Assembly: GCA_902547755.1 (NCBI GenBank)
Contig: CACCPA010000001.1
Location: forward strand, 62,001-126,000
Length of the DNA stretch: 64,000 bases
Origin: Halieaceae bacterium
Lineage (GTDB): Bacteria; Pseudomonadota; Gammaproteobacteria; Pseudomonadales; Halieaceae
Direction of reading: 5' to 3'
The notes below the pieces were generated by a model. The model was given only the letters and a program-made list of their open reading frames with translations, did no database searches and was not told the origin of the DNA. Shown piece after piece: positions 43,169 through 63,517 of the stretch (its first letter is position 1; the number at the start of each line of letters is the position of its first letter). The translations under genes were made by a program, and so were the position numbers.

Positions 43169-43322
43169 AGTTTTAAGCCCTGAGCGGATCGCGCAACGGT
43201 GCCTACAAGCGGTTGGCAACTCAATGCTAATGGGATTAAACGGACCCAAAAAGCGACGCATGTTCGTTGTAGATTGTTGGACCATCAGTCGTTAGCCTGT
43301 GCGGCAGGATAGTGGGGGCTGT

Positions 43323-47178: not shown

Positions 47179-47260
47179 GTTTGTATTAAGTGCTGTTCTT
47201 CTATGTGGGATAAAGCAATCTACTAAATCTAACGAAATATTCAATTAATTGGGGTTACTC

Positions 47261-50200
47261 ATGTTTGATCGCTTGTATCGTCATGGCCGTCTCGTTGGCA
47301 TCGGCCTTGCTGCAGCTCTTCTAAACGCCTGTGGCGGGGGTAGTGCAACTGCTCCGGACGCTGAGCCGTTCTATCTGGAGGAAGAGGAAGAGTGGAGCTT
47401 GGTTTGGTCTGATGAATTCGACGGTAGCGCCGTAGATTCTGGTAGCTGGACGTTCCAACTAGGAGATGGTAGTGATAACGGGCTGCCAGGTTGGGGTAAC
47501 TACGAACTTCAGTATTATCAAGCTGATAATGCGTCTATCCAGGAAGTCGATGATACGACTGCGCTCGTGATTGAAGCTCGCCAGGAAGATGCCGGTAACA
47601 GTGCGTACACCTCAGCGCGCATGCGATCAGTTAACAAGTTTGATTTCAAATATGGCCGTGTTGATGTCCGTGCCAAGGCAGCGCCAGGTGACGGTATGTG
47701 GTCAGCGGTCTGGATGATGCCAACAGACACAACCTATGGCACATGGGCTGCCGGTGGTGAGATCGACATCATGGAAGTGGTGAATGCGGGCACTGATAAT
47801 CAGGGCGTATTCATGGCGGCTCATTACGGTTTCGAGTGGCCCCTAAACCAAATCACGAGCGAAGACGCCGATGTAGATGATGCCACCGACTGGCACACTT
47901 ACTCACTTGAATGGTCTGGCGATTACCTACGTTGGTTTGTTGACGGTGAGCACCTAAGAACCGTAAGTAAAGACGTTTACTACAGCTACTACTTCAAGGA
48001 CAACACAGACGGCTATCAGCTTGCGAGCAATCCCGCTGCGCCGTTTGATCGTGACTTCCACCTCATTGTGAACCTTGCTGTGGGTGGTATCGGCCCAGGT
48101 GTTGAGCTAGACCCATCCTCCGTTCCCGGTGAAATGGTTGTCGATTACATCCGTGTGTACGAGTGCTCATACGACACCGGGAACGGCGTGGGTTGTAACA
48201 GCTTTGCAGACCGCTCGATCGAGTCGCCGGATGCGCAAAGCCCTGAAGTCGTTACGACAGACATCTACACAGATTCAGTTGGTCCTCTAACGTGGACCTT
48301 CCTTACAGGTGACGTGACACGTGACTTGCAGGCGGCCGTTGGCTACAACAACGAGGGCGCGATAGATATCGGCGTCTCGGAAGTGGCTGTTGAAGGTCGG
48401 GGTAATGTCCTTGATGTGATGAGTGATGGCGGCGGTAACGTGCTTGTCAACGCTACTGACGGAAAGATCATCGACATCTACGGTCATCGCGGTGGTGGTG
48501 AGTTGAAGTTCGATATGTATATCGACAGTTCGATGACTGCACCGGACAGTACTATAGCGGTCAAAATTGACAGCGGATACCCAGCACTCGGTAGTATTTC
48601 GCTGAGCGTTGCGGACATGCCGAAGAACGAGTGGTTCTCATACAGTGCATCTATCAATCAGATTCTAGCCACCCGTGGCCGCGGCGAGCGACCGCTCGCT
48701 CTGGGTGCCGTTCAAAATCTCGTGGTCATTGAGCCAAGTGCGGCCGCCCACGTGCAGTTGGACAATATCCGCTTAGTGTGTGGTACGCCTAACGGAGATT
48801 GCGGAATCGCAGCACCCGCTCAGTCTACAGATGATCTCGTTATTACCGTGCTGGATGAGAACGGAGAAGCAGGGTCAGCATGGTCGCCAGGAATCTGCGC
48901 GGTCTCTGCTGAAAATGCTTTCGCCGAGGATTATTGCGATGGGAACACGGCTAACCAAGTGACTTGGTCGGTGGTTCCAACCGGCGATGATGATATTGGC
49001 GTGAATGCGGTAAGAATCGACTTTGGTGATGGCGTTGGTGGCGCATGGTTCATCAAAGATGATCAGGGCCTCGACCTCAGTGACTCAGCGGGCGGCACAT
49101 TGAAGTTTGATATTCAGTTGCCTCCGGAGACAGTCACCGATGGCGTCATCTTCAAGGTTGAGAATGAATATCCGCAAGGTACAGGTGCTATCCCGCTTGA
49201 CTTGGAAGGGTACATTCCTGGAACTTGGAAGAGCTTTGAAATACCAATCGCCGATCTACTTGCTTCCACAAACGCGGAGCAAAACAACCCTCCGGGTGGT
49301 CGGTTAAGTCTTGCTGCAGTTAAGGCCTTTCTAGTTCTCTCTCCAAATGGTGAGCAAGGCGGAAAGTCTATCAAGGTTGCAAATGTCCGGTTGGAGCGCT
49401 TGGCCGGAGAAGAGGTCGAGGACACTGGCATTCTCGGAACATGGATGCTTGCGCCAGAGGCCGGTTCACTCGGTGTAGGCCCAGCGGAATTCGATGTCTC
49501 ATGGTGGAATGGTGACGACGGCGTGATCGCATTACGCGCTTGCTCGTACGATGATGAGTATGTCTTTGGCCGTGATGGTTCATTCCGAAACGTCTTGGGT
49601 GACGAAACCTGGGTAGAAACATGGCAGGGCGTTGAAGCCGATGGTTGCGGGGCACCAGTTGCACCCCATGATGCATCGATTGACGCTACGTTTGAGTACG
49701 ATGAAGGTGCACAGACGCTGACCATCAATGGTCAAGGCTCTTACATGGGGTTACCTAAGGCTGTAAATGGCGCTGAGATCGCATCAGTCGGTGATGCACC
49801 AGGAAGCATTGTTTACAACGCCTACGAGCAAGACGATGGTTCGTTGCTGGTGACTGTTGAGGCCGGTGCAGGCGTTTGGTGGAACTACAAGTTCATCAAG
49901 ACAGCTGAGCCACCACCCCTATCACCTTTTGCGGGGACGTGGGTCGTTGCGCCTGAAGCGGGCTCGTTGGGTGTTGGCCCAGCAGAGTTTGATGTTTCTT
50001 GGTGGAGTGGTGATGATGGTGTGATAGCTCTGAGAGATTGCTACTACGACGATGAGTATATCTTTAATCCTGATGGCTCCTATCGTGTTGAAATGCAGGG
50101 AGAGACGTGGGTCGAGGCCTGGCAGGGCGGAAGCGATTCGTGTGATGCACCCGTGGCTCCTCACGATGGCTCGAATGACGCAACTTGGAGTCATGATCAG

Positions 50201-50896
50201 GAAACTGGAACACTGACCCTGTCTGGTCAGGGGGCCTACGTCGGTCTCTCAAAGGCAGTTAATGGTGCGGAGCTAGCGTCTCCCGCTGATACGCCCGCGA
50301 GCATCACTTACAACGCGCACCCGCAAGAAGACGGTTCGATGTACGTCACTGTCGAAGCCGGTGAAGGCGTGTGGTGGAACTATAAGATTGTGAAGATCGC
50401 CGAACCCGCGGGTCCATCGCCGATCGCTGGTACCTGGTACATGGCGGATTCTGATGGATCGTTAGGTGTAGGCCCTACTGAGTTTGATGTCTCATGGTTC
50501 AGTAACGACGCAGGTGTAACCACGCTGCGTGCGTGTTACTTCGATGACGCTTATGTGTTTGGTGACAACGGGTCATTCGAAAACGTGCAAGGTGATGAGA
50601 CTTGGCTCGAGCCCTGGCAAGGTGTGGAATCCGAAGGTTGTGGTGCTCCAGTAGCACCGCATGATGGCTCTGCCGACGCGACGTTCGTCTATGACGGTGA
50701 TGCCCAGACATTGACGCTCAACGGTGCCGGCGCCTACATTGGCCTTCCAAAAGCGATCAATGGTGCTGAGATCGGATCAGTAGCGGACGTGCCCGCTAGC
50801 ATCTCCTACAACGCCTACCTCAACGATGATGGCACTATGTCGGTCACGGTCGAAGCAGGTGATGGCGTTTGGTGGAACTACTTACTGACACGCTGA
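47261..50896 (+). CDS. GH16 laminarinase (endo-beta-1,3-glucanase) lipoprotein, multidomain
   Basis: 1211 residues. The lipobox LLNAC gives Cys24, so it is a surface or periplasmic lipoprotein. The GH16 domain (about 46-305) has the catalytic E167-I-D169-I-M-E172 motif (GEIDIMEVV) of laminarinases, and LNYELQYY-type subsite residues (GNYELQYY). Two ExoP-type galactose-binding-like domains follow (about 325-510 and 520-715). Three tandem repeats of about 155-165 residues (from 726, 892 and 1057) end the protein. The frame opens at TTG 47249 but ATG 47261 is the start with a ribosome site. Endo-hydrolysis of beta-1,3-glucan is the expected activity. Confidence 0.93.
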   Translation: MFDRLYRHGRLVGIGLAAALLNACGGGSATAPDAEPFYLEEEEEWSLVWSDEFDGSAVDSGSWTFQLGDGSDNGLPGWGNYELQYYQADNASIQEVDDTTALVIEARQEDAGNSAYTSARMRSVNKFDFKYGRVDVRAKAAPGDGMWSAVWMMPTDTTYGTWAAGGEIDIMEVVNAGTDNQGVFMAAHYGFEWPLNQITSEDADVDDATDWHTYSLEWSGDYLRWFVDGEHLRTVSKDVYYSYYFKDNTDGYQLASNPAAPFDRDFHLIVNLAVGGIGPGVELDPSSVPGEMVVDYIRVYECSYDTGNGVGCNSFADRSIESPDAQSPEVVTTDIYTDSVGPLTWTFLTGDVTRDLQAAVGYNNEGAIDIGVSEVAVEGRGNVLDVMSDGGGNVLVNATDGKIIDIYGHRGGGELKFDMYIDSSMTAPDSTIAVKIDSGYPALGSISLSVADMPKNEWFSYSASINQILATRGRGERPLALGAVQNLVVIEPSAAAHVQLDNIRLVCGTPNGDCGIAAPAQSTDDLVITVLDENGEAGSAWSPGICAVSAENAFAEDYCDGNTANQVTWSVVPTGDDDIGVNAVRIDFGDGVGGAWFIKDDQGLDLSDSAGGTLKFDIQLPPETVTDGVIFKVENEYPQGTGAIPLDLEGYIPGTWKSFEIPIADLLASTNAEQNNPPGGRLSLAAVKAFLVLSPNGEQGGKSIKVANVRLERLAGEEVEDTGILGTWMLAPEAGSLGVGPAEFDVSWWNGDDGVIALRACSYDDEYVFGRDGSFRNVLGDETWVETWQGVEADGCGAPVAPHDASIDATFEYDEGAQTLTINGQGSYMGLPKAVNGAEIASVGDAPGSIVYNAYEQDDGSLLVTVEAGAGVWWNYKFIKTAEPPPLSPFAGTWVVAPEAGSLGVGPAEFDVSWWSGDDGVIALRDCYYDDEYIFNPDGSYRVEMQGETWVEAWQGGSDSCDAPVAPHDGSNDATWSHDQETGTLTLSGQGAYVGLSKAVNGAELASPADTPASITYNAHPQEDGSMYVTVEAGEGVWWNYKIVKIAEPAGPSPIAGTWYMADSDGSLGVGPTEFDVSWFSNDAGVTTLRACYFDDAYVFGDNGSFENVQGDETWLEPWQGVESEGCGAPVAPHDGSADATFVYDGDAQTLTLNGAGAYIGLPKAINGAEIGSVADVPASISYNAYLNDDGTMSVTVEAGDGVWWNYLLTR
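49436..50893 (+). repeat. Three tandem C-terminal repeats in GH16 protein
   Basis: Repeat units begin at 49436, 49934 and 50429 with the wording GTWxxAPEAGSLGVGP or close to it. Each has FDVSWW or FDVSWF, two cysteines (ALRAC or ALRDC, and GCGAP or SCDAP), APHD, KAVNGAEx, and a GVWWNY ending. The protein level is much better conserved than the DNA. They are probably carbohydrate-binding or structural modules; I do not recognise a named family. Confidence 0.85.
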
Positions 50897-50914: not shown

Positions 50915-50941
50915 AGCCGGGCAATAGCCCGGCTCTTTTTT
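50915..50941 (+). terminator. Intrinsic terminator of the GH16 gene
   Basis: AGCCGGGC (50915-50922) and GCCCGGCT (50927-50934) with loop AATA, followed by C and a T-run. It lies 18 bases after the GH16 stop. Confidence 0.92.
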
Positions 50942-51087: not shown

Positions 51088-52578
51088 TCAGACCTTGGCG
51101 TGTTGGATCAACGTATTCACAAACGCCCCATGCTGCGGCAGCTTGGCTACAGTTTGAGCGACCTCGTGCTGAATACCTGTAAGGAAAGCGGTCATTTGCT
51201 CGGAGGACATCGCCTGTGCAATGTTGTGGTATCCCCGAGGTGTGAGCCCTTGACCCATCATCACCTGCACCCAAGAATTCTCTGCAAAGACGTCGTCTTG
51301 TGGCTTGAAGACGCGGGCTGAACGTTCAAACAGCTCCATCCGATGTTTTAGCGAGTCCGGCAATTCCATGTTTCGACAGTGATCCCAGAAGGGGTCACCA
51401 TGACGCTCGTTCAGCGCATAATGCAGAACAATAAAGTCTCTAATGTGCTCGGCTTCAGATCGCATTTTGGTGTTGTACTCGCGTACCGTGCTCGCCTCGA
51501 TCGAAAGGTCCGGAAACATCAATAGCAACCACATAATGCCGTTCTGAATGAAGTGGATACTCGTTGACTCCAAAGGTTCGATAAATCCACTCGACAAGCC
51601 AATGGCGATGCAGTTTTTATTCCAGTACCGCTTTCGTTGGCCCGTTGTGAAACGTATGGGGCGTGGATCAATAAGTGTTTTCTCTGGCACGTTTTGGAGC
51701 AGCAGCTCGCGGGCCGTCTGTTCATCCATGAAGTCATTGCAGTAGACCAGACCATTGCCGGCACGATGTTGCAGCGGTATCCGCCACTGCCAGCCCACTT
51801 TATGGGCAATCGCTCTGGTATACGGCTTGGGGTGCTCTGATAGTTCGCTCTGGACGGCCCATGCGCGATTGGCGGGTAACCAGTGGCTCCAATCATCGAA
51901 TCCTGTTTCCAACGTACCTTCGGATAGCAGTGCTCTAAATCCCGTGCAGTCGATGAAGAGATCGCCCTCAATGCGGTGACCATTGTCGAGCACCAGTGCC
52001 TCAATAAAACCATCGTGGGGGCAGGTGTCGACTTGGTTAATCTTTCCCTCAACGCGAGTAACCCCAGAGGCCTCCGCCATTTTGCGCAGGTACATGCCGT
52101 ATTTTGACGCATCGAGGTGATAGGCGTAGTTGAGCTTGTTTTCACTGGTGATAGCAAAGCGTTCCGCCTCGGCAGCTTTTAGCTCGGGACAGTACTCGCT
52201 GTACTGCTCGGCGAGTCCCAGTTCTTGTGCGCGCAGCCAGAAATGATGGAACCCGGCCGCCCACGAGCCTTTCCCGGTATCGCCAAATGAATGGAAGTAG
52301 TTTTCGCCCTCTGTTCGCCAGTTCTCAAACCGAATACCTAACTTAAAGGTACCGCTGGTCAGCTTGATGAAATCGGGTTCGGGTATTTGAAGCAGTCGAT
52401 TGATAGTCAAGATCGTGGGTATGGTTGCTTCACCGACCCCCACAGTACCAATCTCTTCAGACTCCACCAGGGTGACGGAAAGCTTTCGCCCAACCAGACG
52501 CGATAGGGCGGCCGCAGCCATCCAGCCGGCGGTACCGCCTCCGGCTATTACTACACGTTCAACCTTCCGTTCAGACAT
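51088..52578 (-). CDS. Flavin-dependent (tryptophan) halogenase family protein, copy 1
   Basis: 496 residues. The N-terminal FAD motif is GGGTAGWMAAA, followed by GEATIP (49-54). The catalytic lysine is K79 in TFKLGIRF, the W-x-W-x-I-P motif is W263-Q-W265-R-I-P268, and FIEPLES (332-338) carries the conserved glutamate. All key residues of PrnA/RebH-type halogenases are present, so FADH2-dependent chlorination or bromination is plausible; a flavin reductase is not encoded nearby. Last gene of the cassette behind the TonB receptor. Substrate unknown. Confidence 0.9.
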   Translation of the reverse strand: MSERKVERVVIAGGGTAGWMAAAALSRLVGRKLSVTLVESEEIGTVGVGEATIPTILTINRLLQIPEPDFIKLTSGTFKLGIRFENWRTEGENYFHSFGDTGKGSWAAGFHHFWLRAQELGLAEQYSEYCPELKAAEAERFAITSENKLNYAYHLDASKYGMYLRKMAEASGVTRVEGKINQVDTCPHDGFIEALVLDNGHRIEGDLFIDCTGFRALLSEGTLETGFDDWSHWLPANRAWAVQSELSEHPKPYTRAIAHKVGWQWRIPLQHRAGNGLVYCNDFMDEQTARELLLQNVPEKTLIDPRPIRFTTGQRKRYWNKNCIAIGLSSGFIEPLESTSIHFIQNGIMWLLLMFPDLSIEASTVREYNTKMRSEAEHIRDFIVLHYALNERHGDPFWDHCRNMELPDSLKHRMELFERSARVFKPQDDVFAENSWVQVMMGQGLTPRGYHNIAQAMSSEQMTAFLTGIQHEVAQTVAKLPQHGAFVNTLIQHAKV

Positions 52579-52585
52579 TGCTTTT

Positions 52586-53605
52586 TTACCGTTTCAATGA
52601 ATTTGTCAGTTCGGCCCGCAGCTGACGAGCTAAGGAGTCCGAGACGCTGTCGAGTCGCCCCCAGCTGGCCTCGGGCAAGTGCTCGAGGTGCTTTGTGTCT
52701 TCGGCGAATACATAGTGGTCAAACAGCGATTTTAGCGCGTTGCGCTGATGAAGTGGCAGGGAGCGGATGCTCAGAAAAGCATGTTTTAAGGCCTCAGTGG
52801 GTGAGCCATAAACGCCCGGCGTCTCCTGCCACCAGAAATTCACCAGTCCATTGATGGCTGACAGCGATTCGACCTGATGCCACCACATATTGGGTATGTA
52901 GATAACGTCGCCTGGTTCTAACGTAGTTACAACCGCATTACGCTCCGCCTCGGCAAATCGCGGAAATTGCTCGTAGTCAGGGTTTTCGAAGTCCACCATG
53001 CTGATGGGTTGGCCTGCGGGAGTAAGATCCCAGGGGCCAACGTACAGGTTGGCTACTTGATCTGGTGGAAATAAGGTGAATCTGCGCTGCCCGATGACAC
53101 AGCCTGCAATATTACGTGGGAAGTCAAAGTGCGCGGCGACTCTGGATTGGTTGCCAATCCACAGGCTAGTCATGACGGCTGGAAGGGTCATAGGCAGTGG
53201 ATGTGCTTCGTTAAAGCCAGGTAACCAGACACTAGTTTGCGTTGAACCCACGTAGAGCGAAGGTGGGTCTGGTCGGTCCTTTAGTGATAGTAGCTTGTTA
53301 AATACCTGATCAAGCCGGGTATTTACCTGCACGAAATTAAAACCAGAGACGTCCTCATTGTAAAAGAAGCGACCCTTGGACTCTGGTTCTGCCAGAAAGG
53401 CACTGATGGGCCTGCCCTGATAGAAGCTAGCCAGGTACTCGAGCGCTTTTTCGTTACTCTCCGCAGCGTGTTGAACAACGGGCCATTCCTTCAGATACCC
53501 TCGCGCAACCCAAGGCGTTTCCGAAGTCAGTAAGGCTTCTGATGGCGGCGATCCGGCTGGTAGATCTACTTCGGTAATCAGGGGCGCGTTGTTGCAGTCG
53601 GGCAT
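52586..53605 (-). CDS. JmjC/cupin-8 domain protein, Fe(II)/2-oxoglutarate type
   Basis: 339 residues of the cupin_8 family. The iron ligands are H159-F-D161 in AAHFDFPRNI and H243 in WWHQVE, a full HxD...H triad, so hydroxylase activity is possible. PGDVIYIPNMWWHQV is the typical cupin signature. It lies 7 bases upstream of halogenase 1 and downstream of sapC in the same direction. Homologues occur in the same gene company at TonB-dependent receptors in other proteobacteria; the substrate is not known to me. Confidence 0.9.
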   Translation of the reverse strand: MPDCNNAPLITEVDLPAGSPPSEALLTSETPWVARGYLKEWPVVQHAAESNEKALEYLASFYQGRPISAFLAEPESKGRFFYNEDVSGFNFVQVNTRLDQVFNKLLSLKDRPDPPSLYVGSTQTSVWLPGFNEAHPLPMTLPAVMTSLWIGNQSRVAAHFDFPRNIAGCVIGQRRFTLFPPDQVANLYVGPWDLTPAGQPISMVDFENPDYEQFPRFAEAERNAVVTTLEPGDVIYIPNMWWHQVESLSAINGLVNFWWQETPGVYGSPTEALKHAFLSIRSLPLHQRNALKSLFDHYVFAEDTKHLEHLPEASWGRLDSVSDSLARQLRAELTNSLKR

Positions 53606-53611
53606 AACGCT

Positions 53612-54328
53612 TTAACCCATAACCTTCTGATTCTTAAGGTCGATCAGGCGCTTGAGCTGTGACTGGGATGCAACCATCATATAGGCGGGCAGCAGATGAC
53701 CACGGCGATGTAAGTCTGTCACTGCCTCCTCATTGAGCACCTGCAGTTTTTCATCATCCACTGCATAAAACCCTTCCAGTGCGTGATCCTGTCCGTTACG
53801 CAGGGTGATTTTGAGTGTTATGGGCGTGATGAGGCCATGCTGCGCTAGTGCCTCAGCGAACTGGGGCGTCGTCGTATGCCCTACGTGAATTCCTTCGAGC
53901 ATCGTAGCCAAGCGATCAAGATATTCAGTGGTTCCCCCAAACTCTAGAAAAAGTGGCTCTCCCTCAGTTTCACTAATGTTGGGATGGTCCATGTCGATGG
54001 CAACCACACGGGCAGGCTCTTCAGTGTCCGTATTGCCGTCTACGGCAATCATCAGCGGGCCTCGCTGAATCAGCATGGGGATGTACTGGCTGTGCCATTG
54101 CGCATCGTCAATGAAGAGATTCTCCCCTTGCTCAAATCCGAAGAGGGCAATGGGCTGGAAAGTGTTCTCCTCTGGATTTTTGTAAAACATAAGAGGGAAG
54201 TTGCTTTGCAGCGCACGCATCTCACTTGTGTAAACAGGAGAGAACATGATCTCATCCGAGCCGCAGGGGACTTGTTTTATCCGCACCTGCGCATGCTGAA
54301 CATTGTTTAACTTCTGAATATTACTCAA
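53612..54328 (-). CDS. SapC family protein
   Basis: 238 residues resembling the SapC family (named from a Campylobacter S-layer export gene but found widely without S-layers). It has PVYTSEMRALQSNFPLMF near the start, DDAQWHSQYIPMLIQRGP in the middle and a helical C-terminus ending LIDLKNQ. There is no signal peptide, so it is cytoplasmic. It sits between halogenase 2 and the JmjC protein with gaps of 6-10 bases. Its role in the cassette is unknown. Confidence 0.87.
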   Translation of the reverse strand: MSNIQKLNNVQHAQVRIKQVPCGSDEIMFSPVYTSEMRALQSNFPLMFYKNPEENTFQPIALFGFEQGENLFIDDAQWHSQYIPMLIQRGPLMIAVDGNTDTEEPARVVAIDMDHPNISETEGEPLFLEFGGTTEYLDRLATMLEGIHVGHTTTPQFAEALAQHGLITPITLKITLRNGQDHALEGFYAVDDEKLQVLNEEAVTDLHRRGHLLPAYMMVASQSQLKRLIDLKNQKVMG

Positions 54329-54338
54329 TGTCTATCCT

Positions 54339-55901
54339 TTAGATCGCCGCGAAGTCTTTTTCTTGCACCTGATTCATTAAAAACCTATTGGGTGGAAGGT
54401 GCTGGCTGTATCGTTGCGCTTTCTTTTTTGCCTCGGCGAAGAATTGTATTGCGGTTTCTCTCTGGTGTTGATTATTTCTGAGCTGCGAGGCGGTTACCTT
54501 GGACTCAAAGCCCATGCCGTAAAGCACGTATTGATAACTCGCGGACGGAAACATTTCATCACTTCGTCTGTCGTCATAATACCAAGGCGCCCGTGATCGC
54601 CACAGTAGAAGATTCTCCGCCAATGTTTCGGGCATAGATTCAGCGTCCCGGTTATCTTGCCAATATTGGGAGTCGGTTCGCTGAGACAGCGCATAGTGAA
54701 GCTTCAGGAAGTCGATAATTTGCTCCCAGCGACTGGAGAACTCACGATTGAAGCGCTTAGCTACCACCGCCATTGTCGCTCTATCATTTGGTAACTTTTC
54801 TGCTATCGCTGATGCGCTGAGTTCGATCAGAACTAGCGCGGAGGCTTCGAGCGGCTCAATAAAGCCTGCTGATAGGCCAACTCCCACGCAATTTTTGACC
54901 CAAAAGCGTTCGCGATAGCCGGGCTCAAAGCTGAGTAGCCGGGGAGCTAATCCGTCCAGTCCAAGGGCTCGTCCGATAGACTTTAGGTACTGGTCAAGAA
55001 CCTCTTCCGTTTCTGCGGCCGACTGATAGTCGGTTGAAAATACGTGACCTACACCTCGCCGATGCTGGAGTCCAATATCCCAAACCCATCCATTGCGCTT
55101 CGCTGTGGAGTGCGTTGTTGCAGCAATTGGCGCATCGTCATTGTCGTAGGGCACTTGAACGGCTAGGGCGGCGTTATTGAAGAGATATTGGCGCTGGGAC
55201 TTCATCGAAACACCATAGTGTTCGCCAAGTAGCATGCTTTTGAAGCCGGTACAGTCGATAAACAGATCACCCTCTATGTCGCCGGCGTGCTCTGTTTTTA
55301 TCGCGCTGATGTAACCATGATCATCACAGAGAACCGCGGTTACATCGGCTTCGATATGGGTTACACCGAGCCTCGACACGGCATTCTCTGTCAATAACGC
55401 GGCAAACTTACCGGCGTCGAGGTGGTACCCATAATTGACGGTATAGGCATAGTCCGGAACGCCAATTTGTTTTGGTGCACGTCCGAGCTCGCAGACCGCA
55501 TATTGTGGTGTTACAGCCTGGGCAAACGAAAGCTCACCGGCTTCACCATTCAGCCAATGTTCAGCAAGATTCACCGTGTCAAAGCCCTCAGGCAGCGAGA
55601 AGGGGTGGTAATAGGGCTCATCGCCTAGGTTGATCCAGTCTTTGAACCAGGTTCCCTGCTTCATTGAGGCGTCGCATTGCCTGATGAAGTCTGCTTCGTC
55701 GATACCGATATTCTTGAGCGTGGTTCGCATAGAGGGCCATGTGCCTTCACCTACACCCACTGTTGGCACGTTCGGTGATTCGACCAGCGTGATGCAGAGG
55801 CCACTGTTGCCCGCCTGGAAACGAGCCGCAAGAATATTGGCTGTTAGCCATCCGGCTGACCCGCCTCCCACAATAACAACTTTTTGAATTCTCTCGCTCA
55901 T
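54339..55901 (-). CDS. Flavin-dependent (tryptophan) halogenase family protein, copy 2
   Basis: 520 residues. FAD motif GGGSAGWLTA, then GEGTWPS where copy 1 has GEATIPT. The catalytic lysine position is K81 in ASMKQGTWF, and FIEPLEAS is present. The W-x-W-x-I-P motif reads W272-V-W274-D-I-G277, with Gly replacing Pro. It is diverged from copy 1 across the whole length rather than a recent duplicate. It is the first gene of the cassette and follows a hairpin terminator after the TonB receptor. Catalytic competence as a halogenase is plausible but less certain than for copy 1. Confidence 0.88.
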   Translation of the reverse strand: MSERIQKVVIVGGGSAGWLTANILAARFQAGNSGLCITLVESPNVPTVGVGEGTWPSMRTTLKNIGIDEADFIRQCDASMKQGTWFKDWINLGDEPYYHPFSLPEGFDTVNLAEHWLNGEAGELSFAQAVTPQYAVCELGRAPKQIGVPDYAYTVNYGYHLDAGKFAALLTENAVSRLGVTHIEADVTAVLCDDHGYISAIKTEHAGDIEGDLFIDCTGFKSMLLGEHYGVSMKSQRQYLFNNAALAVQVPYDNDDAPIAATTHSTAKRNGWVWDIGLQHRRGVGHVFSTDYQSAAETEEVLDQYLKSIGRALGLDGLAPRLLSFEPGYRERFWVKNCVGVGLSAGFIEPLEASALVLIELSASAIAEKLPNDRATMAVVAKRFNREFSSRWEQIIDFLKLHYALSQRTDSQYWQDNRDAESMPETLAENLLLWRSRAPWYYDDRRSDEMFPSASYQYVLYGMGFESKVTASQLRNNQHQRETAIQFFAEAKKKAQRYSQHLPPNRFLMNQVQEKDFAAI

Positions 55902-55962
55902 ATGAAATGGCTGATTAGGTTTCGATATCGAGTGTAAGACTTTGTTGTTCCTACAAAAACAA

Positions 55963-55985
55963 AAAACCGCCCAGCGGGCGGTTTT
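55963..55985 (-). terminator. Terminator or attenuator after TonB receptor
   Basis: AAAACCGCCC (55963-55972) and GGGCGGTTTT (55976-55985) are perfect 10-bp arms around AGC. On the minus strand the stem is followed by a T-rich tract. It lies 24 bases after the TonB receptor stop and before halogenase 2, so it would reduce read-through from the receptor into the cassette. Confidence 0.88.
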
Positions 55986-56008
55986 CAGAAATTGGGATTC
56001 CGCAGAGT

Positions 56009-58960
56009 TTAAAGGTTATAGCGGAAACCAACATTGTAGCGGGCACCTATCTGGCCAACGCTGTAGGTTTGGTACGTACTACGACCGTGACCTCGGAATG
56101 TCTCATTAGTGATGTTAATGCCTTCGACATAAACCACGAGACCGTCGGAGACTTCATAGGTGATATTGCCATCCCATTGCTCGTACTCTGTCTGATAGCC
56201 GGGCTTGATATCACCGCCAGTAAAGTATTCATCACGCCAGTTGTAAGCAATTCGCGCCTGCATGCCGTAATTATCATAGAAAATTACGAAGTTGCGCGTG
56301 TCTGACAATCCGGCAAGGGCAAACTGACTACCCGACTGCTCGTTGACGTAGACTGCAGAGCCATCAGCGAGAGTCATGTTAGCTATGAAGCCTACACCGG
56401 TATCCCAGAAGTTGTGCTGCCAAGCCAGCTCCCAGCCATCGATACTTTCTTCTTGATCGGTGTTTGTCTGGGTATTGACGTTAAACGGTATCGGATCGTC
56501 GCGGCCAACCACCCCCGTGATGACCTGATTCTCCACATCAACACCAGGCTGATCAGCGAAGTTTGCAAAGATGTAGCCACGGATCTCCGCGTTACCCGGG
56601 TACGCACCATTCTGCGCCTGAAGCGCCGCTGCTGCTTCCTGGTAGAGTGGGCCAAGACCTGGACTCGCGAGCTGATCATTGAGGATCACGTTTTCGAGCG
56701 TTCCGCCACCAATCCAGTTTCGCACTTTCTTATCGAAATAGCCTGCGGAGATGTAGCTAGCATCGCCGTAGTAGTACTCGACCGACAGATCGAAGTTATC
56801 GGCTTCATATGGAAGCAGACCTGGGTTACCAACCGAAGCGATAGCCTCGCCGGGAATACCCTGGTCAACTCGAGTAATGGTGGGCAGATTCAAGGTTCCA
56901 ATCAAAGACCCATATCCTGCTCTTGCAATGGTTTGACTTGCCGAGGCGCGCAGAACTATGTCGTCTGTTAGCTCGATATCAAAATCGATCGATGGGAGAG
57001 TAAAGTCGTATTCACCCTCCAGTGCAGAGGGTACTGAGCCTTCTGCTCGAATGATTTCAAACTCGTTGGTTGAACGCCATTCGACGCGATCATAGGCCAG
57101 TGCTGCCGTGCTCGATACGACCTCAGTCTCTTCGTATCGGACACCCGCTCGGATGTTGAAGGGGCGATTGATAATCTCACCCGAGAAGTTCAGTTGCAGG
57201 TAAGCCGCGACAGACTCTTCCTCGAACTCGTTAGCACTGTCCGGAGTAGAGCTTGGGCAGAATCCGGTTCCACAATCGCCACCCGTGCTCGCTTGTGCGA
57301 GGTGAAGTGGGTTGCTTTCTGGGAGTCCCTGCAAGAATTCCGCGCGCTCCACGAGGTCTTCCATGCTCGCCATGAAGAAGTTCATGTTCATCTGGTCCCC
57401 ACCAGCGAGCTCGCTGTAGACACCTGCAAGCGAGGCTGGAACGACGAGATCAGCAACGCTGCCAAATGCGGACGCTTGGTTCTGTCCCCATGTATTTCGC
57501 TGAACATTAGAGCCCGCGTCGTAGTTATCCACTACGGTCTGAGCTGCGCCAAAGTCAACGATTAACGTATCTGTAAGCTCGAATGAACCGTCAAACTGCG
57601 TTTGCTCGATGTTCATGTCCGCCCAGTAGTTGTTAAATACTGAACCTGAGATTTGCAGATCATCTGGCGAGATGGGCTCGGCCATCTCGACTGTCAAAAT
57701 TGGCAGTTCGTTGCGGTAATCCACAGACGTCAACTGGCGACCATAAATCGACATAGAAACTTGTGCCGAGCTGCCATACACGCTGTTTGGGTTGCGCGTC
57801 GCTTGTGAGTCATGGTAGTCGAGCGCTAGGCTTAAGCGATCCGTCGGGTCCCACTGTACGTTGAAACCAAGCGACTTTCGCTCGTTAATAGACGCGTCAG
57901 AGAACGCACCCATTGATAAGTCTGGCTGGTTGTTTGTCTCTGTGTAAACCAGAGGGCTCACCACGCCATTTTCATTAATCCAGTTACCCGATTGGCCAGT
58001 AGGGCTAAACCACGCAGAAACACTGTTTTGCGTGTGGCGAAGGTCCAGCTCAGCGTAGGTGTAATCAAGCGTCGCAGTCAGCGTCTCGATCGGGCTCCAC
58101 TGCAATGTGACTTGCGCGTTAGTTCGATCACGCTGCCACTCGTCAAGTGCGTAGGTCTGCTGCTGTGGAAGGCCAACGATGTCTCCTTCTGATGGGCTGT
58201 TGACTTGCTGCCCATTATCAGGGACGCCAATGCCATCCCGCTCGAGCCAGTTACCGTTACTTGCACCGGCTTGTCCTGAATGGCGCTCTTGGAAGCTTCC
58301 CGTTATCGAGATGCCTACTGTGTCGTCCATGAAGGTCTGAGAGACCAAAAACGCGATTTCTGGCGTCCACTCGTCACCTGTGCGCGAGCTCTGGTCTTTA
58401 ACGCCTTTGGCGCTGAATGAGGCTTTCAGGCCAGGATTATCCAGAGGCTTTGCGGTGAGGACGTTGATCGTTGCACCGATACCGCCTGTGGGAACCGACG
58501 CATCTGCTGTTTTGTATACCTCAACACCCGAAACGCTTTCTGATGCGATATCGCCAAAGTCGAAGGAACGACCCAGACCGCTGTGGGTTGGCATTTGACG
58601 GCCATTCAGCGTCACCAGATTAAAATCAGCACCGAAACCACGAACCGTGACGCGAGCACCTTCTCCACGGTCCCGATCGATAGCAACACCGGTAATTCGC
58701 TGCAATGCTTCTGCAAGGTTGGTATCGGGGAAGTCACCGATATCCTCCGCAGTGATGGCATCCACAACACCTGTTGCGTCTCGCTTGGTGTCCATCGCGC
58801 GCTTCAGGCTCGATCGGATACCTGTGACTACGACTTCTTCCATTACCTGATCATTAGCGTTTTCGCTTTGCTGCGCAGCGACTGGTGCGGCAGCAACCGC
58901 GCCCAGCGCAACAGACACTGCGAGCGATACGCGTTTTTTAGCAAACAAGTGACGATCCAT
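56009..58960 (-). CDS. TonB-dependent outer-membrane receptor
   Basis: 983 residues. A signal peptide (cleavage near APVAAQ) is followed by the TonB box region EEVVVTGIRSSL and a plug domain (EDIGDFPDTNLAEALQRITG, ARVTVRGFGADFNLVTLNG). The remainder is the 22-strand barrel, ending GARYNVGFRYNL with an aromatic-rich last strand. It belongs to the TonB receptor class with a TonB-box VTGIRSSL start that is typical for oligosaccharide uptake in marine gammaproteobacteria and caulobacters. Divergent from the second GH3; laminarin oligosaccharide is the expected cargo. Confidence 0.93.
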   Translation of the reverse strand: MDRHLFAKKRVSLAVSVALGAVAAAPVAAQQSENANDQVMEEVVVTGIRSSLKRAMDTKRDATGVVDAITAEDIGDFPDTNLAEALQRITGVAIDRDRGEGARVTVRGFGADFNLVTLNGRQMPTHSGLGRSFDFGDIASESVSGVEVYKTADASVPTGGIGATINVLTAKPLDNPGLKASFSAKGVKDQSSRTGDEWTPEIAFLVSQTFMDDTVGISITGSFQERHSGQAGASNGNWLERDGIGVPDNGQQVNSPSEGDIVGLPQQQTYALDEWQRDRTNAQVTLQWSPIETLTATLDYTYAELDLRHTQNSVSAWFSPTGQSGNWINENGVVSPLVYTETNNQPDLSMGAFSDASINERKSLGFNVQWDPTDRLSLALDYHDSQATRNPNSVYGSSAQVSMSIYGRQLTSVDYRNELPILTVEMAEPISPDDLQISGSVFNNYWADMNIEQTQFDGSFELTDTLIVDFGAAQTVVDNYDAGSNVQRNTWGQNQASAFGSVADLVVPASLAGVYSELAGGDQMNMNFFMASMEDLVERAEFLQGLPESNPLHLAQASTGGDCGTGFCPSSTPDSANEFEEESVAAYLQLNFSGEIINRPFNIRAGVRYEETEVVSSTAALAYDRVEWRSTNEFEIIRAEGSVPSALEGEYDFTLPSIDFDIELTDDIVLRASASQTIARAGYGSLIGTLNLPTITRVDQGIPGEAIASVGNPGLLPYEADNFDLSVEYYYGDASYISAGYFDKKVRNWIGGGTLENVILNDQLASPGLGPLYQEAAAALQAQNGAYPGNAEIRGYIFANFADQPGVDVENQVITGVVGRDDPIPFNVNTQTNTDQEESIDGWELAWQHNFWDTGVGFIANMTLADGSAVYVNEQSGSQFALAGLSDTRNFVIFYDNYGMQARIAYNWRDEYFTGGDIKPGYQTEYEQWDGNITYEVSDGLVVYVEGINITNETFRGHGRSTYQTYSVGQIGARYNVGFRYNL

Positions 58961-59413
58961 GTTTGGAGTAACCCCGACTAGTTATTGGTTAGAAATATTG
59001 TGCAGACGCTAACATCCCACGAGCGCCAACGGTAGGACAGGTGGCATGAGACAAGTCGGGATATCGGTGCGGTAAATGGGAAGCTCGTGCGTCGCATGCA
59101 ATTTTGCGGAACAATGCTGGCTCTGTTACGCGTGAACTACCGACATTTTAGGGCCCATAAAATAAGAGTAAGTGCGACTCGCGACGGTATCCATTTGACC
59201 TCTTTTGGCGACCCTACCGTCGCAAAAATCGTGCATCGAGGAGGGTTGAGGCAGTATTTTTAAGTCTTCACCGCATAGTGGCATAGGGCCTTATACTTGC
59301 CGACGATATTGGCGTGCTTCCCTGGGATTGGCTGCTAGATGTTTTGAGTAGGGCAGCGTTGTGGACGAGGCGATACTGAAAAGAATATGAGGAAAGCTGT
59401 GCAGGGGAAAAAC
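58961..59413. other. Divergent regulatory region between TonB receptor and GH3
   Basis: About 450 bases without a gene; short open frames here are shadows. It must hold promoters for both the receptor (minus) and the GH3-symporter pair (plus). The structure I see is the motif cluster at 59181-59223 plus a further CCTACCGT (minus strand) at 59029-59036, 65-76 bases before the receptor start. No clear -35/-10 pair could be fixed for either gene. Confidence 0.6.
59181..59223. promoter_or_regulatory. Inverted repeat of the CCCTAyCGTCGC motif
   Basis: GCGACGGTA (59181-59189) and TACCGTCGC (59215-59223) form a perfect 9-bp inverted repeat with a 25-base spacer. The plus-strand arm extends to CCCTACCGTCGC, matching the GH16 upstream motif at 11 of 12 bases. 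A dimeric or paired-site regulator of the glucan locus is the simplest reading. Confidence 0.5.
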
Positions 59414-61906
59414 GTGCGATCACTCTATACATTGATGGGCTTACTTTTATCAGGTGGCGCCTTAACTGGCTGCCAAGGCCCAACTGCGGGGAACGATGTC
59501 GATCTGAGCTGTGCGTCGGTGGCGTCAGATCGTGCAGCGATGGTTTTCTGTGCGACCTCGATTGTTGAGCAACTATCGGTTGAGCAGAAAGTTGCGCAAA
59601 TGATTCAGGGCGAGATTCGTGGCCTCACGGCAGACGAGGTAAAAAAATACGGTTTGGGGAGCGTTCTGAACGGTGGTGGCGGGTTTCCGGGAGGGGACAA
59701 ATACGCCACTCCTCAGGATTGGGTTGATCTCGCTGATGCCTATTACAGTGCTTCGATTGACGCCTCTGAAGGGAGCGCAGGCATTCCGATCGTTTGGGGA
59801 ACCGATGCGGTACACGGACACAACAATGTCATGGGTGCGACGCTTTTCCCGCACAATATTGGTCTGGGGGCAACGCGTGATACAGAGCTGGTGGCCAGGA
59901 TCATCGGTGCGACCGCGAGAGAAGTTAAGGCTACAGGAATCGATTGGATCTTTGCGCCAACCGTGGCGGTTGCAAAAGATGCGCGGTGGGGACGCACCTA
60001 CGAGTCGTTCAGTTCTGACCCAGACATTGCGGCCAGTTTCGTGGCGCCCATCGTCGAGGCGATGCAGGATGAAGGCGTTGCCTCAACGGCGAAGCACTTC
60101 ATCGGGGACGGCGGCACATTACGCGGTGATGACCGTGGCGAGACAAGCTTGCCACTCGAGGACTTGGTGGCCATCCACGGGCAGGGGTATGTAGAGGCGA
60201 TCGATAAAGACGTGATGAGCGTCATGTCCTCATTCAATAGCTGGTACGGCGAGAAGATTCACGGTAGCAAAGCCATCCTGACCGACCTTCTTCGTGATGA
60301 CATGGGTTTTGAGGGCATGGTCGTCAGTGACTGGAACGGTGTTGGTGAGGTACTTGGTTGTACCAACGATAACTGTGCTCAGGCGATCAATGCCGGAGTA
60401 GATATGGTGATGGCGCCAGGAAACTGGAAGCCTCTTTACTACAACATGCTCGATCAAGTCGCGACCGGCGAAATTTCGATGGCGCGAATCAACGAGGCGG
60501 TCGAGCGGATTTTGGTCATGAAAATGCGGGCTGGGTTATTCACCCGTGGACTCCCCTCCGAATTTGCAGATGACTTTTCAGATCAAATCGGCCACGCAGA
60601 TCACCGCGGCATCGCTCGTGAAGCCGTGAGGAAGTCGCAGGTATTGCTGAAAAACCAAGGTGGCGTTCTTCCAGCATCGCCCTCAGAGAGGTTCATCATT
60701 GCCGGTCCCGGTGCCGATAATATTGGGCAGCAGAGTGGTGGCTGGACTGTCAGCTGGCAGGGGACGGGTAATACCAATCAGGACTTTCCTGGAGGCACCT
60801 CGATTGCGGCAGGGCTGACTGCGCAGATCGAAGCTGCTGGTGGATCGGTGACTTCAGATACGGCTGCGGATGCTGATGTCGCGATCGTCGTTTTTGGCGA
60901 GTCTCCGTATGCGGAAATGCAGGGTGACATTTATTCCGTTACCTGGTACGACAAGCGAGGTGAACGGGCTCTAATAACGTCGCTCAAGGCACGCGGTATT
61001 CCTGTTGTGGCGGTTTTCTTAACGGGTCGCCCAATGTGGGTCAACGACATACTGAATGATAGTGATGCCTTCGTCGTATCCTGGCTGCCCGGCAGTGAAG
61101 GCCAAGGAGTGGCTGACGTCTTACTGGCTGACGCGCAAGGCAACCTACAGTTTGATTTTGTGGGCAAGCTACCCATGCCGTGGCCAGCGCTCGACGTAAA
61201 CGCGACCAATCGCGATTTACCCGTGGACGAATTTATTTTCCCGATCGGTTATGGGTTGTCGGTGAAAGATGAATTGGCCTGGTCGGAGTTGTCCGAACAG
61301 TTAATCGGTGCGGATAACAGCTTGGATCAAGAGGTCTTCAAGGGTGGCCCCAGAGGAAATTGGCAGCTCTTCACTGGCGATCCCAGCGATTGGGCGGTCG
61401 AGGTCACGGGTAGTGAGTCGCAGTCTTCGACTGGCAGCGTTGTCGTTCAAGCCATTGACCGAGTTGTTCAAGAAGATGCCCGACGTGTGGCCTTCACGGG
61501 AGCTGATCAGAGGCTCTCCGTCGTCTACATGCAGTCTCAGTACCCTACAGATCTCACTGACTTAGATGAGGCGGGCGGTGCGCTTGTTCTCGATTTCAAG
61601 GTGGTAGAAAAGCCGACAGCCCCCGTGAATTTGCGCATGGATTGTAAGTACCCGTGCTCTGGGTCGGTCCGATTCACCAAGGTTTTACTAGATGCGCCAG
61701 TGGGGGAGTGGACTCAAAAGTCGGTACCAACAGCCTGTTTTGCCAACGAGGGCTTGCAACTGTCTCAAGTAAACACAGCTTTTGTACTCGCAACTGAAGG
61801 TGATATAACGCTCGATATCTCGGAGATCAAACTGACCACGACGCCGGCGATTCGCTCGATCGTATCGTGTGCAGACTTAGTCAACGACACAGACTTGTTG
61901 AACTAA
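59414..61906 (+). CDS. GH3 beta-glucosidase lipoprotein with ExoP domain
   Basis: About 830 residues. Lipobox LTGC with Cys20 from GTG 59414, which has AGGGG 6 bases before it; ATG 59387 is a longer alternative. GH3 motifs are GTDAVHGHNN, KHFIGDGG and the nucleophile D306 in VVSDWNG. The C-terminal ExoP-type domain has DCKYPCSGSV. It lacks the Ig-like pair of the GH3 at 40226, and the catalytic parts are closely related. It releases glucose from beta-1,3-gluco-oligosaccharides. The symporter gene follows after 30 bases. Confidence 0.92.
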   Translation: MRSLYTLMGLLLSGGALTGCQGPTAGNDVDLSCASVASDRAAMVFCATSIVEQLSVEQKVAQMIQGEIRGLTADEVKKYGLGSVLNGGGGFPGGDKYATPQDWVDLADAYYSASIDASEGSAGIPIVWGTDAVHGHNNVMGATLFPHNIGLGATRDTELVARIIGATAREVKATGIDWIFAPTVAVAKDARWGRTYESFSSDPDIAASFVAPIVEAMQDEGVASTAKHFIGDGGTLRGDDRGETSLPLEDLVAIHGQGYVEAIDKDVMSVMSSFNSWYGEKIHGSKAILTDLLRDDMGFEGMVVSDWNGVGEVLGCTNDNCAQAINAGVDMVMAPGNWKPLYYNMLDQVATGEISMARINEAVERILVMKMRAGLFTRGLPSEFADDFSDQIGHADHRGIAREAVRKSQVLLKNQGGVLPASPSERFIIAGPGADNIGQQSGGWTVSWQGTGNTNQDFPGGTSIAAGLTAQIEAAGGSVTSDTAADADVAIVVFGESPYAEMQGDIYSVTWYDKRGERALITSLKARGIPVVAVFLTGRPMWVNDILNDSDAFVVSWLPGSEGQGVADVLLADAQGNLQFDFVGKLPMPWPALDVNATNRDLPVDEFIFPIGYGLSVKDELAWSELSEQLIGADNSLDQEVFKGGPRGNWQLFTGDPSDWAVEVTGSESQSSTGSVVVQAIDRVVQEDARRVAFTGADQRLSVVYMQSQYPTDLTDLDEAGGALVLDFKVVEKPTAPVNLRMDCKYPCSGSVRFTKVLLDAPVGEWTQKSVPTACFANEGLQLSQVNTAFVLATEGDITLDISEIKLTTTPAIRSIVSCADLVNDTDLLN

Positions 61907-61936: not shown

Positions 61937-63517
61937 ATGACAACCATTGATATGCTAATTGTGGGGCTGTACGCCGTCGGATTGTTTGGCCTAGCACAGT
62001 GGGTGTCTCGCGACTCGGGTCAGGCCAAAACCACTGAAGACTATTTTCTCGCAGGAAGATCCTTGCCGTGGTGGGCAATTGGCGCCTCGTTGATAGCAGC
62101 CAACATCTCAGCAGAGCAGATTATCGGGCAGTCGGGTCAGGGCTACGTGGTCGGTTTGGCGATCGCCGCCTATGAATGGCAGGCGGCTATCGTGTTACTG
62201 GTGGTTGCTAAGTACTTTTTGCCTATATTTTTGAAGCGCGAAATTTACACCATGCCGCAGTTCCTGCAGACCCGATATGGCACAGGGGTGAAGTCCTTGA
62301 TGTCTTTCTACTGGATCGTGCTCTATACCGCGGTCAATCTAACGGCTGTGCTGTGGTTAGGCGGTCTGGCAATTGAGAGCCTGACAGGTGTCAGCGTGAT
62401 GCCCGCCATGATGGCGCTTGCTGCTTTCGCGGTGCTGTACTCGCTTTACGGCGGTTTGAAGGCCGTTGCTCTGACGGACATCATTCAGGTTGTGATTCTC
62501 ATTATGGGCGGATTTGCCATTACATGGCTCGCGTTGGATGCTGTCGGGGCAGGTCAGGGCGCCTTTTCAGGATTGGCTCGGCTCGGTGAAGAAGTGCCGG
62601 GTCACTTCACAATGATTCTCGATGAAGCACATCCTAACTACAGCGATCTTCCCGGCATCTGGACGCTTCTGGGCGGTCTTTGGGTGCTGCATTTCTCCTA
62701 TTGGGGTTTTAACCAATACATCATTCAACGCGCCCTGGGTGCCGAAAGTCTCGCTGAGGCCCAGAAGGGCCTCGTATTCGCCGCGTTTTTGAAGCTACTA
62801 ATCCCCGTCATCGTGGTTGTGCCGGGCATTGCGGCCCTTGTGCTCGCACAGGATGGCGCTTTGGCGGCCGAGGTGCTTAATGACAAATCGGACCGGACCT
62901 ATGGCGAGCTGATGAAACTGGCACCGGCAGGCTTGCGGGGTCTTGTCTTTGCGGCTTTGATAGCGGCGATTGTGTCCTCGTTAGCATCGATGATGAATTC
63001 TATTGCCACCATCTTCACCATGGACATCTACCGCCAATACGCGGGTCGTGAACGTGATGAGTCGCATTATGTGATGGTTGGACGGGTCGTCGCATTCGCC
63101 GCCATGTTGATTGCTCTCGTGCTTGCTAGACCGTTTTTGGGTGGTATGGAGAGTGCCTTTCAAACCATTCAGGAATACACCGGCTTTATTGCCCCAGGTG
63201 TGGTGACGATTTTCCTCCTGGGCTTCTTCTACCAACGAGCCAATGAGGCCAGTGCCTATGCAGTTTTGATTGGCTCGGTGATCGCGAGTCTTATTCTCAA
63301 GGTGATGATGCCGGATATGCCCTTTGTTTTAAGGATATGGCTCGTTTTCCTCGCCAACATTGTTCTGGGTGTTTTGGTTGCAAAGCTGACTCGAGAGCCT
63401 CAGGCTGGACAGCCGGTATTGCTCAGCGATATTGGATTTGGCACGACCCAGGGATTTAATGTGGCGGCTATTGCTGTGGCGCTTATTCTCGTCTTGATTT
63501 ACGCCGCTTTTTGGTAG
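61937..63517 (+). CDS. Sodium:solute symporter (SGLT-like)
   Basis: 526 residues with 13-14 membrane segments of the SSS family. It shows WVSRDSGQAKTTEDYFLAGRSLPWW, the typical SGLT start, ANISAEQIIGQSGQGY at the sodium site, and the mid-protein YSLYGGLKAVALTDIIQ. It follows the GH3 gene by 30 bases with AGAAGGAA as ribosome site, so it is in one operon with it. Likely imports glucose or glucose-containing sugar released by GH3 with Na+. A terminator follows. Confidence 0.93.
   Translation: MTTIDMLIVGLYAVGLFGLAQWVSRDSGQAKTTEDYFLAGRSLPWWAIGASLIAANISAEQIIGQSGQGYVVGLAIAAYEWQAAIVLLVVAKYFLPIFLKREIYTMPQFLQTRYGTGVKSLMSFYWIVLYTAVNLTAVLWLGGLAIESLTGVSVMPAMMALAAFAVLYSLYGGLKAVALTDIIQVVILIMGGFAITWLALDAVGAGQGAFSGLARLGEEVPGHFTMILDEAHPNYSDLPGIWTLLGGLWVLHFSYWGFNQYIIQRALGAESLAEAQKGLVFAAFLKLLIPVIVVVPGIAALVLAQDGALAAEVLNDKSDRTYGELMKLAPAGLRGLVFAALIAAIVSSLASMMNSIATIFTMDIYRQYAGRERDESHYVMVGRVVAFAAMLIALVLARPFLGGMESAFQTIQEYTGFIAPGVVTIFLLGFFYQRANEASAYAVLIGSVIASLILKVMMPDMPFVLRIWLVFLANIVLGVLVAKLTREPQAGQPVLLSDIGFGTTQGFNVAAIAVALILVLIYAAFW

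Follow-up and report, generated by a model that had tools for sequence, protein, structure and literature searches.

Free tryptophan is not a substrate of the halogenases BrvH and Xcc4156, which brominate indole or its derivatives and prefer bromide (PMC5945002, PMC7336383). Both enzymes have an open active site, and peptides have been proposed as their substrates (PMC5945002, PMC7336383). The low activity of BrvH led its authors to doubt that indole is the natural substrate (PMC5945002), and the native substrates of both enzymes are stated to be unknown (PMC7336383). The brvH gene has another halogenase gene upstream of it (PMC5945002). MibH is cited as a model for both enzymes (PMC8269204, PMC7336383), and in MibH-type lanthipeptide halogenases, the tryptophan is halogenated inside a peptide. 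The qhp operon provides a precedent for the action of a cytoplasmic flavoprotein on peptidyl tryptophan before export: QhpG modifies a tryptophan of QhpC in the cytoplasm, before QhpC is exported to the periplasm, and acts within a complex of maturation proteins during cysteine tryptophylquinone biogenesis (PMC7876137).

We analyzed a window of 64,000 nucleotides (the whole stretch of DNA under study) in which genes for two putative halogenases, a SapC protein, and a Cupin_8/JmjC-type oxygenase follow the gene for a TonB-dependent receptor. The SapC family is named for the S-layer loci of Campylobacter; the SapC in the window belongs to the same Pfam family, but it is accompanied by redox enzymes and a receptor. 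The oxygenase is most similar to FIH and JMJD5, which are protein hydroxylases, but it is bacterial and is encoded in a receptor operon. Similarly, BrvH and Xcc4156 were published as single enzymes, while here the halogenases are part of a receptor cassette. The words "TonB" and "SapC" are both absent from the main text of each of the three papers PMC5945002, PMC8269204, and PMC7336383.

We propose that the four genes downstream of the receptor gene form a modification operon that is dedicated to one outer-membrane receptor. We give this reading a probability of roughly 0.4.

A halogenase cassette behind a receptor gene

The features of the locus are:

56009-58960, minus strand: TonB-dependent receptor of the TIGR01782 type (604 bits; cut-off 310), first gene of the cassette
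55962-55986, minus strand: terminator-like hairpin with 11 pairs and a T run, in the gap between the receptor and halogenase A genes; candidate attenuator
54339-55901, minus strand: halogenase A (PF04820; 403 bits; cut-off 21), with a GWVWDIG motif
53612-54328, minus strand: SapC (PF07277; 217 bits; cut-off 28.9)
52586-53605, minus strand: Cupin_8/JmjC-type oxygenase, similar to FIH and JMJD5 (PF13621; 222 bits)
51088-52578, minus strand: halogenase B (PF04820; 618 bits; cut-off 21), with a GWQWRIP motif
50915-50934, plus strand (the strand scored): terminator-like hairpin in the space where the GH16 and halogenase B genes converge
47249-50896, plus strand: flanking GH16 protein for glucan degradation (profile match)
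59387-61906, plus strand: flanking GH3 glucosidase with an Exop_C domain (profile match)
61937-63517, plus strand: flanking sodium:solute symporter (profile match)
40226-43285, minus strand: second flanking GH3 protein (match to a custom profile built for this analysis)

The cassette is transcribed in the order receptor, halogenase A, SapC, cupin_8, and halogenase B. The enzyme genes are just 6 to 10 bases apart, and a gap of 107 bases follows the receptor gene. By eye, the receptor has a Sec-type signal sequence, and no signal peptide is apparent in the cassette enzymes. These results agree with a preliminary description of the locus, which had recognized the two halogenases, the JmjC/cupin-8 protein, and SapC as one minus-strand cassette downstream of a TonB receptor, with GH3, GH16, and a sodium symporter nearby; profile matches place all of these genes as described.

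The genome assembly is 2.1 Mb and 72% complete, and the two PF04820 genes and the one SapC gene that we found in it are all in the cassette. The preliminary description had also reported no flavin reductase. This is correct for the cassette itself, but the genome contains two Flavin_Reduct genes, one of them about 9 kb past the end of the window.

A TIGR01782 receptor together with glycosidases and a sugar transporter identifies this as a carbohydrate utilization locus of the kind known as CUT loci or PULs. The receptor, GH3, GH16, and symporter, and the LacI regulators in related loci, are typical of such loci, while the enzyme cassette is an extra component. Our searches of the open-access literature on TonB-receptor carbohydrate loci did not bring up the cassette by name, and searches for SapC with halogenase, or for tryptophan halogenase with TonB, found nothing about it among the papers listed. 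Two candidate papers were set aside: PMC11337851 describes rebH/prnA-like transcripts, and "SapCa" in PMC4911050 is a clay. Just before the GH16 gene (45191-47127), there also appears to be a LytS/LytR-like pair of sensor kinase and response regulator, as judged by reading the translations.

The cassette and its receptor in other genomes

We surveyed 172 loci, including the window. The survey was seeded by SapC or by halogenase B, never by the receptor, and drew on three sources. A search of 185 genomes from the class for SapC gave 31 loci besides the window's own. A SapC profile matched at least 137 of 398 genomes of the phylum, and 60 high-ranking places were taken, with a few skipped. Finally, GTDB contigs had 581 confirmed loci with halogenase B, of which we took the best 80; these are the most window-like and favor the window's gene order. 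Among these best 80 loci, the halogenase B nearest to the window's is from a Luminiphilus assembly (74% identical) and the next is from a Halieaceae assembly (62%), which makes it probable that the host belongs to this group.

We defined a cassette as SapC plus a halogenase or cupin_8, as detected with custom profiles. The 172 loci contain 123 cassettes: 69 have the form found in the window, 34 lack halogenase A, and 20 have other forms. A receptor of the window's kind is upstream on the same strand in 114 of the 123 cassettes (counts that are not all independent, as there may be near-duplicate records such as L106/L123). The receptor gene is within 400 bp in 107 cases and 0.6-2.6 kb away in 7. 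As for cassettes without an adjacent receptor, 4 are at the end of a contig and 5 are exceptions. Two of the exceptions, L095 and L165, agree in their length and in the coordinates of their genes, so they probably represent a single short contig. This leaves L047, L105, and L188, which have room upstream yet no receptor. The association with the receptor is far beyond chance, and this survey bears out the preliminary description's statement that the set recurs behind TonB receptors.

Genomes with several cassettes have several receptors. Two or three cassettes were fetched from each of 12 genomes, and 28 of these 29 cassettes come with a receptor of their own. The sets have diverged strongly: identities between the cassettes of one genome are 23-53% for the receptors and 24-47% for the SapCs.

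These multiple sets bear on a different explanation, that the enzymes make a small halogenated and hydroxylated indole or peptide, which could be a ligand of the receptor, a signal for it, or a companion of glucan uptake. This is the idea of the preliminary description in its small-molecule form. Relatives of halogenase B do brominate free indole and its derivatives in vitro (PMC5945002, PMC7336383), and receptors do import small molecules. On the other hand, a shared diffusible product would make one enzyme set per receptor superfluous, and the low activity of BrvH speaks against indole (PMC5945002). Also, we saw no conserved precursor ORF of 20-95 amino acids in the gap after the receptor gene or within 800 bp on either side of 96 cassettes. 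The largest cluster of such ORFs included 12 loci and was antisense, and the largest same-strand cluster included 6 loci. In this respect the cassettes differ from the MibH-type systems. Nor did we find NRPS or PKS among the eight window genes and the ten neighbor representatives that we scanned, which are a subset of the neighbors. We consider a small-molecule product to be somewhat unlikely.

In a tree of 184 distinct receptors, the window's receptor belongs to a clade of 117 members, of which 113 are linked to the enzymes. The unlinked control receptors are mostly from seven cassette-bearing genomes, and the unlinked status of some is uncertain because it was judged from only 1.5 kb of downstream sequence. 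There are further receptor clades that are associated with halogenases in other gene sets. For instance, in L239, L263, L272, and L246, receptors from other clades are followed by halogenases, and in some cases by cupin_8, and SapC was not detected in these four loci.

Co-divergence of the receptor with the cassette proteins speaks in part for a dedicated operon, but it is uneven. Across 96 loci, the correlation of distances with those of the receptor is 0.74 for SapC, 0.62 for cupin_8, and 0.56 for halogenase B. Across the 59 loci with halogenase A, it is 0.75 for SapC, 0.73 for cupin_8, 0.82 for halogenase B, and 0.66 for halogenase A. We compared these to neighboring genes, using subsets of 15 to 37 loci each. 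SapC and halogenase B had correlations with the receptor of 0.79 and 0.85 in the GH3 subset (GH3 itself, 0.43), 0.78 and 0.80 in the MFS subset (MFS, 0.52), 0.80 and 0.84 in the GH1 subset (GH1, 0.58), and 0.85 and 0.89 in the LacI subset (LacI, 0.70). Cupin_8 ranged from 0.55 to 0.76 in these subsets, and was only partly above the control genes. In the DUF6445 subset (17 loci), the correlations were 0.90 for SapC, 0.85 for DUF6445, 0.81 for cupin_8, and 0.49 for halogenase B. Co-divergence of the receptor with the enzymes exceeds that of the neighboring genes only partly, and genetic linkage alone may account for it.

The neighboring genes are more variable than the receptor. GH3 was found in 61 of the 172 loci and GH16 in 31; SapC and cupin_8 occur with two halogenases in 62 loci, of which 33 have GH3 and 22 have GH16. 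The other large clusters of neighbors are LacI regulators (44), DUF6445 (24), MFS sugar transporters (22), and GH1 (18). (These counts are affected by our choice of genes, which drops some overlapping genes.) From its GH16 and GH3 genes, which fit β-glucan, a laminarin setting for the locus in the window is plausible. The cassette itself does not look laminarin-specific: GH3 and GH16 are at a minority of the loci, with GH1, MFS, and LacI genes elsewhere, which weakens the laminarin role in the preliminary description.

Could the client be another protein associated with the receptor, such as a surface lipoprotein, a part of the TonB system, or a secreted glycosidase? Two of the cassettes without receptors, L047 and L105, are in GH16 loci, and SapC proteins that lack the enzymes are often near giant proteins (see below), which implies that the clients of SapC need not be receptors. 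However, none of the other genes that we found is as constant as the receptor, and the receptor shows stronger co-divergence with SapC and halogenase B than GH3 or GH1. We think that another protein client is unlikely.

Similarly, the sugar-locus context, with its LacI regulators, MFS and SSF transporters, and GH1, GH3, or GH16 enzymes, would fit a cassette whose task is to degrade or detoxify compounds, halogenated or aromatic, that come with algal glucan, and whose only connection to uptake is shared regulation. But the carriers are not solely marine, as they include Massilia, Duganella, and Sphingomonas Leaf strains; we identified no degradative partner among the neighbors; and detoxification would not explain one set per receptor. 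We consider this very improbable.

The enzymes and their possible targets

Both halogenases in the window have the catalytic lysine and glutamate. Across the loci, at the two main positions (behind the receptor or behind cupin_8), the lysine is present in 191/191 proteins and the glutamate in 190/191. For PF04820 proteins at other positions, each is present in 35/37. The receptor-proximal and cupin_8-proximal halogenases form separate clades, with few strays.

The nearest solved relatives of halogenase B are Xcc4156 (6y1w; 55% identical over 486 columns), then 9luq and BrvH, which aligns over nearly its full length. The preliminary description had named an occluded halogenase pocket as a result that would speak against it. 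For halogenase B we see no sign of this: it aligns without gaps to the short loops 149-157 and 428-438 of Xcc4156, and these are the two loops that close the site in other tryptophan halogenases. An orthologue of Xcc4156 (90%) is itself encoded in a cassette of receptor, SapC, cupin_8, and halogenase, without halogenase A. We chose 12 regions around such relatives; 11 of them contain a cassette, and one contains a halogenase alone. Placing the Xcc4156 orthologue in a receptor operon offers a candidate substrate for these halogenases.

The solved relatives of halogenase A are 2pyx, 9ltb, and 9lu2. The PDB entries 9luq, 9lu2, and 9ltb indicate that such enzymes are under study by others; we found no paper on them in the open-access literature.

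The preliminary description suggested that the enzymes act on a dedicated compound, which could be a peptide, a tryptophan derivative, or a protein. A dedicated and possibly protein substrate is reasonable given that the relatives spare free tryptophan, act on indole, have an open site, and have no known native substrate. As to the specific substrate, the receptor is our candidate.

It is also conceivable that at least one of the two PF04820 proteins is a monooxygenase instead of a halogenase, in which case hydroxylation would be all that the cassette does to its target. The GWxWxIP motif is intact in halogenase B but is changed to GWVWDIG in halogenase A, and most receptor-proximal halogenases have GWxWDIG as well (aspartate in 72/80 and glycine in 66/80). 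The window halogenases score 33 and 42 bits against the NCBIfam model for QhpG, a peptidyl-tryptophan monooxygenase, far below its cut-off of 240 bits; the receptor-proximal halogenase has the higher of these weak scores. The presence of a JmjC-type oxygenase, and in some copies of the 2OG-oxygenase-like DUF6445, would also suit a hydroxylating cassette. But the lysine and glutamate of halogenases are retained, and relatives of halogenase B brominate (PMC7336383), so we consider purely hydroxylating activity to be quite unlikely.

The cupin_8 protein has an Fe(II)-binding triad (HxD...H; H159, D161, and H243) that is invariant in 66 aligned rows. Although its closest solved relatives are FIH and JMJD5, C2orf60, which is a tRNA-modifying enzyme, is also among its solved relatives, so it is uncertain that the target of cupin_8 is a protein. 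In L045, L047, L069, L073, and L074, a second cupin_8 gene adjoins halogenase B in the opposite direction.

Of the 24 DUF6445 genes in the survey (L163:12790-13611 and 23 related genes), 19 are no more than 300 bp behind a halogenase. DUF6445 has a conserved pattern, HxD...H...RLT, which resembles that of 2OG oxygenases. This suggests that DUF6445 is another 2OG oxygenase. We did not find DUF6445 in the window's genome assembly.

The receptor, SapC, and a proposed order of events

To consider which residues of the receptor might be modified, we examined its AlphaFold2 model (pLDDT 88.0), which has a long-stranded barrel, with 22 strands by eye, and an N-terminal plug. The short turns of such receptors are usually periplasmic. 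If so, then by eye, W317 and W628 would be at the outward ends of strands, and D189, T199, E201, D887, and R960 would be near outward loops. These residues may serve as a platform for glycans, as the face that is modified, or as both, and none of them singles out a target.

Some residues mark the main clade: W317 is present in 98% of its members versus 16% of receptors outside it, and W628 in 90% versus 6%. N281 is asparagine in all 113 linked members of the clade and in 2% of 50 unlinked outsiders. Shared ancestry explains such clade-specific residues. W317 is retained in four clade members without adjacent enzymes and in 35/37 receptors without halogenase A; L093 and L170, which have tyrosine instead, both lack halogenase A. 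W327 is tryptophan in 52/62 receptors with halogenase A versus 11/37 without it, but this contrast is due to one clade, as elsewhere 11/14 receptors without halogenase A keep W327. In two other enzyme-linked clades (6 linked and 6 not; 8 linked and 3 not), no tryptophan separates the groups, and the tryptophan content is 1.38% in linked receptors and 1.36% in unlinked ones. Overall, no receptor tryptophan follows the presence of the enzymes consistently. This counts against the receptor as the substrate. That reading is still the simplest one, and the link of the cassette to the receptor is itself established.

The hairpin behind the receptor gene is a recurrent feature. Hairpins with a T run are found in 60 of 106 gaps between receptor and enzyme genes, as compared to averages of 1.4 (maximum 3) when gaps were resampled and 1.4 (maximum 5) when windows were drawn at random. 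In the region as a whole, there is no excess of terminator-like sites (7 versus 7.7 in shuffles).

If the four genes do form a modification operon, then the receptor gene would be transcribed first, and the hairpin would pass only part of the transcription on to the enzyme genes. Restricted read-through would leave the receptor in excess over the enzymes. The enzymes would remain in the cytoplasm, where the receptor exists only as a precursor, still unfolded and bound for Sec export. SapC might bind this client and present it; halogenase A and/or halogenase B would halogenate (probably brominate) or oxidize an aromatic side chain; and the FIH-like cupin_8 enzyme would hydroxylate another residue. 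The receptor, probably modified on its outward face, would then import glucan fragments. This resembles the order of action in the qhp operon, but the halogenases are below the QhpG cut-off, and the client of QhpG is a small enzyme subunit rather than an outer-membrane receptor.

More broadly, the cassette might belong to a widespread system by which bacteria add halogens and hydroxyl groups to their own outer-membrane nutrient receptors ahead of export. Each receptor would have one diverged enzyme set, SapC would handle exported surface proteins in general, and the receptor would be the substrate of Xcc4156-type enzymes. This is possible, but we hold it tentatively. If so, α-, β-, and γ-proteobacteria would have halogenation as a protein modification of their outer-membrane receptors. 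It would matter for glycan uptake and perhaps, we speculate, for recognition by phages or bacteriocins. The SapC family would gain a testable role.

SapC also occurs without the enzymes, in 39 of the 172 loci. ORFs of at least 1,200 amino acids are found in 16 of these 39 loci, as compared to 8 of the 133 other loci. All 19 giant ORFs in the solo loci are on the same strand as SapC, and eight of them adjoin it. In the remaining 23 solo loci, there is no giant ORF within the stretch that was fetched. Pfam scans of six giants identified two TPS exoproteins and one ESPR/PATR autotransporter, and the other three had no family match. As with SapC from Campylobacter, solo SapC is found with exported surface proteins (three of the six scanned). 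One protein from a giant locus has a LEPR.LLSADP-like start, and another has a similar start; we take this to resemble a known surface-protein motif. These neighbors suggest that SapC handles exported surface proteins. The AlphaFold2 model of SapC is confident (pLDDT 95.5) but has no convincing match among solved structures, so this proposed role is drawn from the neighbors.

The loci in which giants share a strand with solo SapC are L033, L034, L036-L043, L049, L053, L056, L059, L060, and L198. Some solo SapC loci also contain genes for ShlB, SecA-like, or PqqD-domain proteins. For instance, the genes at L034:3380-5560 and L039:4654-6870, which are near SapC, encode a SecA-like protein and a protein that has weak PqqD-like, daptide-protease-like, and RND-adaptor-like matches.
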